Source: Acidobacteriaceae bacterium (lineage in GTDB: Bacteria; Acidobacteriota; Terriglobia; Terriglobales; Acidobacteriaceae). Taken from it: DNA of 52,549 nucleotides. The DNA is taken from assembly GCA_027365415.1 (NCBI GenBank), contig DAHXNK010000004.1:1-52549 (forward strand), written 5' to 3'. Made by a program: the position numbers and the translations under genes. Under the pieces are notes generated by a model. It had not been told where the DNA came from. It saw only the letters and a program-made list of their open reading frames with translations, and made no database searches. The first letter of the stretch is position 1. The number at the start of each line of letters is the position of its first letter. This document shows, in pieces, positions 46,010 through 49,877 of this stretch.

Positions 46010-47953
46010 TTGAATCAGCAGCAAGTACAAACAGCACGGCTCCAGCGTTGGAGCCAAGACGGTAACGCGCGACTCACGTTGGAAGACGCGCAAGCGTGGC
46101 TGGAGGCGGTGGGATTCTGTCCTCTCGCGCCGCTTCTTCTGCCGGGCCATCCCCCCACACCCACGCTGCTGGAAGCCATTCTCGGCAAGCCGCTGCCTCA
46201 GCCCACATTTGCCGAGCGGGCCAGCATGCAATCTCTGCTGGCGCGGCTGGTACAGGCCAAGGTTGCGGTGCCGTTATTGCTTATTTCTCCACCCGGAGAG
46301 CAGCCGGATTTTGTGGCGACGCTGGAAGCGCTGCCGTTCCTCTATGCCATGCGCGGGGATCGCGATTGGAAGGCGCAGCCCACGCAGATCGGCCAGGGCA
46401 GAGTCTCGCATCTGGCGCTGCATTGCTGGCAGGAGATAGAGCGCAATGGCCCGCAGACGCTCAGCGTGTTGCAACGCGCACTGGGCAATGAGATCACCGA
46501 GGCCGCCGCACTGCGCGCCTTGTGCGAACTCTGGGGGCATCTGCGTGTGGTTCCGCAGTTGCAGGTAGACGATGCGGGCGAATCGGCTCCGCCGATTTGG
46601 GAGTTGTTGTCGCGGCGATATCCCAAGCAGGTCTCCATTGGCGCGGGGATGGGCCAGCCAGCGGCGCTGTCGGGCATCCTGTCGCTGTACCTGAGCGCCG
46701 TGCTGGCCGCCTCCGATGCGGAGATTGTTGCGTTTCTTTCTCCATTGGCCAGCCAATCCAAAACCCGCGAGATGGTGCATGGCCTGACGGCGACGCGGCA
46801 GTTGGGACGCATTCCCTATGAAGGCGGAATGTTGCTGCACTTGAAGGATGGTTTGCCAGCAGAGCTGCTGGTGGACTTGAGCGAGCCAACAATTTTTGCG
46901 AACGAAAATGATGCTGCAGCGCGTCCGGCGCGTGGCCCGATCCGCAAGTGGGAGCCGCGCTCTCGTCCAGAGAAGTCAGATCGACCCGCATATTCAAATC
47001 GACCAGAAAGATCGGCGCGGCCAGAAAATTTTGTGCGTCCAGAGCGCCCGGCACGTCGTCCAGAGCGTTCAGCGGTAGGCTCGTTTGCGGCGAAGAAATT
47101 TTCTTCGGCAAAACCATTTTCTCCTGCAAAGAAGTTTTCTTCTGCCAAGAAGTTTCCTGCGGCGAAGCCCTTTCCCTCGTCCGATGCACAGCAACGAGGC
47201 GCTCACGATAGGCCGCAGCGAAGCTACCCGAATGCGTCCTATCCCGACGCGAAGCGAAAAAGCTATTCCGATGCGCCACGTTTCACAGCGCGTTCGGCAG
47301 CGTCGGGAGAAAGGCCCGCCTTCCGGCCCACTCGTCCCGGCAGCCGCCCAGGATTTGGGGCCAAGACGTTTCCATCAAAATCCTTTCCGTCGAAATCTTT
47401 TCCATCGAAGGAAAAATCCTTTTCGCCCAAGGAGGGTACCCGCGAAGGTGGCGCTCCCAAGCGACCTTTTCAGGAGCGCCCCTTCCAAAAGCGTTCCTTT
47501 CCAAAACGCTTCGAGGCCAAGCCAGCATTTCGCAGGCCGGATGCCTCTGCGTCGGGAGAGCCAAGCAGTCGTGAGCCGAAAAGCGATGAATCCAGAAGTG
47601 GCGAACGGAGTGGTGGGAGTAAGCCGTGGAGCAAACTAGGCGGCGAGCGGAAATTTGATCGGCCCAGAAGCGATGCGCCTGCGCGCCTCAGAGCGGATTC
47701 CAAGTCGGCAGCTACCAGCGGCGGAAAAACCGAGTGGAAGAAGCCGCGCGTTGCGGAGCGAGACAAGGCTCCTGCAAAATTTAAGAAGTTTGACGCGGGC
47801 AAATCCCCCGCAAAGAAATTTTCGCGGGACAAAACGAGCAGTAAGAAATCGGCTCCTGCCCATGCGGACGAAGGGGCGGGCGCACAGCCCACTCCTCGCA
47901 AGGAGCCATTCTGGGCCAAACCGATGCACCCCAAACGGAAGAAACGTGACTGA
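46010..47953 (+). CDS. Unrecognised protein with a long basic low-complexity tail
   Basis: I do not recognise this 647-residue protein. Residues 1-300 are globular-looking, with a possible winged-helix segment (RNGPQTLSVLQRALGN followed by AALRALCELWGHLRVVPQ) and LSPLASQSKTREMVHGLTAT. Residues 305-647 are a disordered tail rich in Lys, Arg, Ser, Pro and Phe, with short repeats such as KKFSSAKPFSPAKKFSSAKK and SKSFPSKSFPSK, ending HPKRKKRD. Such tails usually bind nucleic acids. The start is TTG at 46010 with GAGGGT nearby. Its last 8 nt overlap cmk, and it follows mutL by 37 nt, so it is probably co-transcribed with both. A nucleic-acid role is inferred. Confidence 0.75.
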   Translation: MNQQQVQTARLQRWSQDGNARLTLEDAQAWLEAVGFCPLAPLLLPGHPPTPTLLEAILGKPLPQPTFAERASMQSLLARLVQAKVAVPLLLISPPGEQPDFVATLEALPFLYAMRGDRDWKAQPTQIGQGRVSHLALHCWQEIERNGPQTLSVLQRALGNEITEAAALRALCELWGHLRVVPQLQVDDAGESAPPIWELLSRRYPKQVSIGAGMGQPAALSGILSLYLSAVLAASDAEIVAFLSPLASQSKTREMVHGLTATRQLGRIPYEGGMLLHLKDGLPAELLVDLSEPTIFANENDAAARPARGPIRKWEPRSRPEKSDRPAYSNRPERSARPENFVRPERPARRPERSAVGSFAAKKFSSAKPFSPAKKFSSAKKFPAAKPFPSSDAQQRGAHDRPQRSYPNASYPDAKRKSYSDAPRFTARSAASGERPAFRPTRPGSRPGFGAKTFPSKSFPSKSFPSKEKSFSPKEGTREGGAPKRPFQERPFQKRSFPKRFEAKPAFRRPDASASGEPSSREPKSDESRSGERSGGSKPWSKLGGERKFDRPRSDAPARLRADSKSAATSGGKTEWKKPRVAERDKAPAKFKKFDAGKSPAKKFSRDKTSSKKSAPAHADEGAGAQPTPRKEPFWAKPMHPKRKKRD

Positions 47954-48756: not shown

Positions 48757-48770
48757 CTCCGTGGAGTCCT

Positions 48771-49877
48771 ATGCGATTTGAAGACATCATCGGGCAGGGA
48801 GAGGTAATTGCGCGGCTCAAGGGATATGGGGAGTTCTTTGCGTCGAAGGGTAGTACTCCCGGACACATCTTGCTTGTTGGCGACGACGGAATGGGGAAAT
48901 CCTCCATCGCAAACGTTTTCGCGAACGAAATGGGAGTTGGCTTTCAAGAAGCGGATGCAAGCAAACTCGAAATTATTGGAGATGTATCAGCCCTCCTCAC
49001 CAATCTCAAACTAAATCAGATTTTATTTCTTAAGAATATCCATCTCTCCCGGAAGACGCTTGCCAACAAGCTGGGACAGCCCTTGACTGATTTCAAATGC
49101 GAAATCCATATCGGACAGGGACCGGCACAACGTCTGCACATCATGGATATTCATCCGTTCACGTTAATCGCGACCTGCCCGAAAAAATCGGATTGCCCAC
49201 CGGAATTGCTGGGCGAGTTTTCCTTAATTTTAAGTTTGCAGCCTTACTCCAAAATCGAACTTCAAGCCATTGCAGACAGCATCGCCAAGAAACTCGAAGT
49301 CACACTTGAACTGGATGCTGCCGAGTTGCTGGCTAGAAATTGTGACGGTCGGCCCAGTGATCTCCAATCAACATTGCGTCGGGTTCTGCGCGCCCACAAC
49401 AAGAAGACGATCACCGCAGAGGACGTACAGCAGACGTTCCAAGCATTTGGCATCCATGTTCGTACCGATGAACCATTGAACTTGGTCGATGGCCTGAAAG
49501 ATTTATCTGGGGTAGATTTTGAAAAGCTAATTGTCAGCTTGCTTGCTCGCATGGAGTTTCAGGCTGAAATGACCCAAACAAGTGGGGACGGCGGGATCGA
49601 CATTATCGCCACGCTCAACAAACCAATCTTCGGGGGGCGGTATCTTTTTCAATGCAAACGATACAGCGCTGGAAACTTAGTTGGCGCACCCACGCTTCGG
49701 GATTTCTATGGAGCGGTCACGGCAGATCGAGCAATCAAGGGCATCTTCATCACCACTTCTGACTACACACCTCAGGCGCGGGAGTTCGGCGAAAAATCTG
49801 GATTAGAGCTAATCAACTTGCAGCAGCTACAAAAGTTATTTTTCGAGTATGGGCTGCTTACTATTGGGCAGGCGTAG
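48771..49877 (+). CDS. RuvB-like AAA domain fused to an Mrr-type nuclease
   Basis: The 368 residues combine two families. Residues 1-235 follow RuvB from FEDIIGQGEVIARLKGY through Walker A GDDGMGKSS (37-45), GDVSALLTNL and the small domain. Walker B, normally FIDEIH, is FLKNIH (86-91). The arginine-finger segment, normally LRDRFG, is LLGEFS (146-151). The sensor-2 Arg is also lost. Nucleotide may therefore bind without efficient hydrolysis. Residues 244-355 are an Mrr-like PD-(D/E)xK domain: LSGVDFEKLIVSLLARMEF, GDGGIDIIA (Asp277), YLFQCKRYS (Gln294, Lys296). The RuvB winged helix is replaced by the nuclease. ATG has GGAG 4 nt upstream. The gene is AT-richer than its neighbours. Domain calls are firm by motif; the role is inferred. 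Confidence 0.88.
   Translation: MRFEDIIGQGEVIARLKGYGEFFASKGSTPGHILLVGDDGMGKSSIANVFANEMGVGFQEADASKLEIIGDVSALLTNLKLNQILFLKNIHLSRKTLANKLGQPLTDFKCEIHIGQGPAQRLHIMDIHPFTLIATCPKKSDCPPELLGEFSLILSLQPYSKIELQAIADSIAKKLEVTLELDAAELLARNCDGRPSDLQSTLRRVLRAHNKKTITAEDVQQTFQAFGIHVRTDEPLNLVDGLKDLSGVDFEKLIVSLLARMEFQAEMTQTSGDGGIDIIATLNKPIFGGRYLFQCKRYSAGNLVGAPTLRDFYGAVTADRAIKGIFITTSDYTPQAREFGEKSGLELINLQQLQKLFFEYGLLTIGQA

Follow-up and report, generated by a model that had tools for sequence, protein, structure and literature searches.

RuvB is the motor that moves four-way DNA junctions, and RuvAB is a textbook machine with, to our knowledge, few known partners. In the RuvABC and RuvAB-RecU resolvasomes, RuvB works as an active motor, and the nuclease at RuvA-bound junctions is a protein distinct from it. 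Nucleases of the Mrr_cat family (PF04471), which include E. coli Mrr, Type IV restriction enzymes and defence proteins of the ZorD and LmuA types, are built on a D...QxK nuclease domain. ImuA/ImuB offer a different precedent, in which repair enzymes have become catalytically dead adaptors: inactive paralogues of RecA and of a polymerase serve in this role (PMC3765255).

The window analysed here is a stretch of 52,549 nucleotides from an Acidobacteriaceae bacterium (contig DAHXNK010000004.1). It encodes a protein in which a pseudo-RuvB is fused to an Mrr-type nuclease (Table 1). The genome also encodes a normal RuvB, with which the fusion shares the fold of the AAA large domain and lid, the presensor-1 hairpin and helix alpha3, at about 38% identity over residues 2-205. 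Unlike RuvB, the fusion lacks the Walker B acids, the arginine finger and, in most copies, the sensor-2 arginine; its head is a nuclease, and it scores far below the RuvB equivalog cut-offs (over residues 2-229, 121 bits against 299 for TIGR00635, and 133 against 282). The nuclease domain is that of the Mrr_cat proteins, but the targeting half is a pseudo-RuvB, and none of the PADLOC restriction and defence models spans the whole protein, mREase_IV matching mainly the nuclease half. The logic we would predict for the fusion is that of the resolvasomes, except that a dead RuvB would carry a nuclease of another family. ImuA/ImuB follow the same principle in unrelated families and have no fused nuclease, although one of the fusions described below lies beside such genes.

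Table 1. Features of the fusion gene, in window coordinates.
Feature	Position	Strand	Evidence or remark
Whole fusion gene	48771..49877	+	368 aa plus stop; ATG start
Probable ribosome-binding site GGAG	48763..48766	+	Sequence; precedes the ATG start
Pseudo-RuvB large AAA subdomain (residues 1-155)	48771..49235	+	RuvB_N over residues 2-151, E 4e-26; model matches RuvB
Walker A GDDGMGKS (37-44)	48879..48902	+	Alignments; Lys43 present in window copy
Helix alpha3 (69-77), second RuvA-contacting element in RuvB	48975..49001	+	Model secondary structure; PMC9477746
Degenerate Walker B, Asp-Glu to Lys88-Asn89	49032..49037	+	Lost in 8/8
Presensor-1 beta-hairpin (110-127), RuvA domain III binding element in RuvB	49098..49151	+	Alignment, trees; L135-L152 in E. 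coli RuvB (PMC2628435)
Fusion-specific conserved patch (129-160), replaces sensor 1 and arginine-finger segment	49155..49250	+	Alignment
Arginine-finger position, now Glu149	49215..49217	+	Arg in 0/8
RuvB-like AAA lid (156-228)	49236..49454	+	AAA_lid_4 weak, E 0.0015; model
Sensor-2 position, now Ser196	49356..49358	+	Arg in 2/8
Mrr-type nuclease domain (243-356), where RuvB has its winged helix	49497..49838	+	Mrr_cat E 8.9e-30
Asp277, predicted catalytic	49599..49601	+	Invariant in 8/8
Gln294-Cys-Lys296, predicted catalytic	49650..49658	+	Invariant in 8/8

The original prediction for this gene, made from the sequence alone, was of a RuvB-like N-terminal part whose winged helix has been swapped for an Mrr nuclease. 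Both parts of this description are borne out, the first by the RuvB_N match and the alignment to E. coli RuvB, the second by Mrr_cat, which scores 103.6 bits against a gathering score of 21. RuvB_C has no Pfam match at the C-terminus, where the Mrr domain occupies its position. The top PDB sequence matches of the protein are RuvBs (1.2e-28); a sequence search of the PDB gave no match for the nuclease half, which is no argument against a nuclease fold. An AlphaFold2 model of the window protein (mean pLDDT 91, pTM 0.70), built on an alignment that contained RuvB rows, has RuvB chains as all of its 47 best Foldseek matches, and VIA gave Z 24.7 and 1.5 Å over 169 residues to EcRuvB (9dx3_H). The most divergent homologue (G535), which has no P-loop left, was modelled from fusions only (pLDDT 78), and RuvB was again the first match; the RuvB fold claimed for the N-terminal part is thus what both models match best. 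Mrr-type nucleases are absent among the structure matches listed, a list filled by the AAA domain, and this again does not speak against a nuclease fold.

A search for the same domain pair across genomes recovered a family of eight full-length fusions, namely the window copy and seven from as many further genomes of its class, along with a broken and a truncated copy. Six of the 398 genomes of the same family, the window's included, contain a full-length fusion; these genomes also hold one broken and one contig-truncated copy, and three further matches among them are plain RuvB. The class-wide search added two full-length fusions from two other families, found in 1 of 39 and 1 of 95 genomes of these groups. 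In a sample of the phylum (n=396), the window's own copy was the sole fusion found. The family is rare and its distribution patchy, and the gene content of the genomes points to Acidobacteriota. Given eight full-length homologues and purifying selection (see below), a chance fusion, a frameshift artefact and a pseudogene are ruled out. A viral origin is also rejected: scans of IMG/VR yielded no relative, and the listed phage and plasmid matches are RuvB-only. The one long phage match (H21) is another ORF, whose end is Mrr-like, and a single contig match (L001), from an exact short-peptide scan that is not sensitive, is an unrelated short match. Carriers retain RuvB and RuvA, with exceptions in incomplete assemblies: G863 has neither, and the RuvA match of G520 is partial. 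A RuvC-like match is present in nine of the ten carriers, the tenth being an incomplete assembly, and we reject the idea that the fusion replaces RuvC; in G704 the RuvC match lies below the curated cut-off, in pieces broken by contig ends. The truncated relative (G301, L051:3993-4805), which runs into the end of its contig, has the Mrr half and the lid, but the sequence upstream of them does not resemble the RuvB module of the fusions.

To assess the motor, we counted residues in the eight full-length fusions on the RuvB alignment, with the window protein aligned to E. coli RuvB and the roles of RuvAB motor residues taken from PMC9477746. All eight have lost, among other RuvB-invariant sites, both Walker B acids, the Mg-binding threonine, the P-loop Pro-Pro, the arginine finger and a TTR stretch close to sensor 1. 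Few of the signature acids, which act across subunits, survive. Because these residues are lost, the fusion protein, as judged from its sequence, is very unlikely to work as a RuvB motor. The losses of the Walker B acids and of the arginine finger had both been predicted for the window copy, and no homologue retains either. The predicted loss of the sensor-2 arginine holds for the window copy, which has serine, and not family-wide, as arginine persists in two fusions. Similarly, the retention of Lys43 was correctly noted for the window copy, which still has a plausible P-loop, but it is no constant of the family: the lysine is kept in six of eight fusions and is Q or R in the other two, and the Thr44 position is threonine in none and serine in two. 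Since Walker A decays too, the nucleotide-gated clamp that had been envisaged is unlikely for the family. As a separate observation, the patch at residues 129-160 reads TLIATCPKKxxCPxELLxEFSLxLxLQPYS; it is conserved among the fusions and may be a new interface.

The nuclease half presents the opposite picture to the motor. The Asp277/Gln294/Lys296 set singled out by the original prediction is kept in all eight fusions, as is Glu251, and the Mrr nuclease is predicted to be catalytically intact, so that it would cleave DNA. Within the family, the Mrr halves share 57-77% identity, compared with 36-42% to two further Mrr proteins encoded in the window's genome. For a pair of close homologues (G520 and G476, the latter carrying a frameshift and a deletion that possibly stem from assembly), omega was estimated at 0.21 over the first 129 residues of the AAA half and at 0.04 over the Mrr part, values that indicate purifying selection on both halves of the fusion.

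A point missed in the original prediction concerns the RuvB surface that contacts RuvA domain III, made up of helix alpha3 and the presensor-1 hairpin (PMC9477746). Both elements persist in the fusions although the motor residues are lost in all eight, and the hairpin is RuvB-like. In a tree calculated without the hairpin region, the eight fusions fall on one side of a branch with support of 100/100, and forcing the G704 fusion together with the RuvBs of its host lineage in this rest-of-domain tree is rejected (AU test, p 1.6e-4). In the hairpin-only tree, the G704 fusion is placed among the host-lineage RuvBs (SH-aLRT 99) and the G863 fusion near those of its own host lineage, and the remaining fusions group with their own. 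The hairpin of the G704 fusion has a mean identity of 69% to host-lineage RuvB and of 15% to its fellow fusions, and the corresponding values over the remainder of the domain are 28% and 31%.

We quantified this pattern at columns where host RuvB and the fusion consensus differ, comparing the published RuvA-docking surface with positions elsewhere by Fisher's test. With an interface set that was taken from published work once the hairpin pattern was already apparent, host and fusion letters are split 10:0 on the docking surface and 10:27 elsewhere in the G704 fusion (p 3.6e-5), and 4:0 and 10:21 in the G863 fusion (p 0.019, weak taken alone). The test is carried by these two lineages outside the main family, and the AAA branches are long. 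When the docking mask was slid along the domain, equally high scores occurred only at 8 residues or less from the true place. For alpha3 alone, the excess of host letters is not significant. The codons give no clear sign that the hairpin similarity stems from recent gene conversion by ruvB: codon identity among shared residues is 7/17 in the G704 hairpin and 21/70 in the whole domain. The RuvA of G704 (L059:430-1083) has diverged strongly, scoring 113 bits versus approximately 205 in the other family, and its RuvB is ordinary; strong divergence of RuvA is as expected if hairpins follow RuvA. The sequence evidence suggests that the fusion probably still grips RuvA, and the host-tracking hairpin makes this prediction directly testable with two purified proteins.

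On balance, we lean towards the fusion being an adaptor independent of ATP, which would dock on RuvA at junctions and position the Mrr nuclease there, in recombination or fork repair or in defence. A duplicated RuvB would have lost its motor chemistry and the DNA grip of the winged helix, and kept the surface that binds domain III of RuvA. Either by itself or as a substitute for a RuvB subunit, the fusion could then dock without ATP on RuvA that is bound to Holliday junctions or reversed forks, which would set the Mrr nuclease on a junction arm at the place of the RuvB head domain. Branched DNA would be cut there, either as auxiliary processing of junctions and forks or to destroy foreign DNA that is replicating or recombining. 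The sequences show the ancestry, the lost motor residues, the retained nuclease residues, the purifying selection and the way the hairpin follows the host RuvB; binding to RuvA, cutting of DNA and the role in the cell are what we infer from them. Apart from the nucleotide gating, the sequence evidence agrees with the original prediction, in which a Holliday-junction motor became a nuclease-positioning clamp; RuvA was not proposed there as the partner. We found no description of a RuvB-Mrr fusion or of such a system in the open-access literature searched, and our analysis points to a route, so far undescribed, by which a nuclease could be brought to branched DNA. We are evenly divided on the broader claim that this is a junction-targeted effector of a new kind, in which a dead RuvB, as a RuvA-docking adaptor, loads a restriction-type nuclease onto Holliday junctions or reversed forks, co-evolves with the host RuvA, and has a role in repair or phage defence not known for RuvAB. 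If true, RuvA-bound junctions can recruit enzymes beyond the known partners of RuvAB, a natural pseudo-AAA+ would be available for separating RuvA docking from motor action, and there would perhaps be a defence route that reads branched DNA.

The host-like hairpin would also be expected of a bait. The fusion could be an integrated decoy in anti-phage immunity, offering a RuvB-like target to a phage protein that attacks or hijacks RuvAB; capture would free the Mrr nuclease to cut DNA and cause abortive infection. The patchy distribution fits this idea, as does the resemblance of the Mrr domains to those of PADLOC restriction and candidate defence proteins, and the G533 copy lies in a possible defence island (L047:485-8944), which holds a bSEFIR defence gene and a gene for a TPR-containing Ser/Thr kinase. 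We nevertheless consider a decoy unlikely, as most copies are found among housekeeping and repair genes, one of them in a ruv array, and no phage antagonist of RuvB is tied to the fusion. The same neighbourhoods bear on the defence role raised in the original prediction, which is possible and has the locus near the bSEFIR gene in its favour, but little else.

The match of mREase_IV to the nuclease half and the Mrr_cat homology would also suit a Type IV-like restriction enzyme, in which Mrr cuts modified or foreign DNA, the RuvB remnant is a mere scaffold for DNA binding or oligomerisation, and RuvA is not involved. This is rather improbable, given that it leaves the host-following RuvA-docking hairpin unexplained and that RuvB's own DNA-binding head is absent. 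The loss of the cross-subunit residues, the arginine finger and the signature acids, is what one would see in a ring-blocking subunit, and the RuvA-binding face is kept. The fusion might accordingly be regulatory, a poison subunit that joins or caps RuvB rings and halts branch migration, with Mrr mainly binding DNA; the invariance of the Mrr catalytic residues and the strongest constraint being on the Mrr half make this very unlikely. Finally, it is highly improbable that local ruvB duplicates joined Mrr domains more than once, with the hairpin likeness ancestral and the rest converged after loss of the ATPase, for although the G704 gene is adjacent to ruvB and long branches make a single clade less certain, the AU test rejects a pairing of the G704 fusion with host RuvB, the Mrr halves form one group by identity, and the domain junction and the patch at 129-160 are common to the fusions.

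The genomic settings of the fusions vary, and those in G704 and G535 speak for the proposed RuvA-docking adaptor. In G704, the order is ruvC (at the contig edge), ruvA, ruvB, fusion and a folK-like gene, and a congener has the same gene order without the fusion; that this is the sole copy adjoining ruv genes counts against the proposal. The G535 copy follows an SRAP gene and runs divergently to genes that encode RecA-like, Y-polymerase-like and DNA polymerase III alpha domains (imuA/imuB/dnaE2-like), a layout of the kind tied to the SOS response (PMC3765255). A simple pattern search recognised no LexA-type box common to the upstream regions of the family genes. The G337 copy adjoins a mutS2-like gene, the G863 copy has a gene with an SLFN_AlbA_2 domain close by, and the remaining copies occupy seemingly ordinary chromosomal sites. 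The window copy is flanked by cmk and an endonuclease IV-like gene, mutL lies farther upstream, and no ruv gene adjoins it. Between mutL and cmk, the window also contains a 647-aa ORF (46010-47953) with a weak AlkZ-related match on its N-terminal side and a long low-complexity tail rich in Lys, Arg, Ser and Pro.
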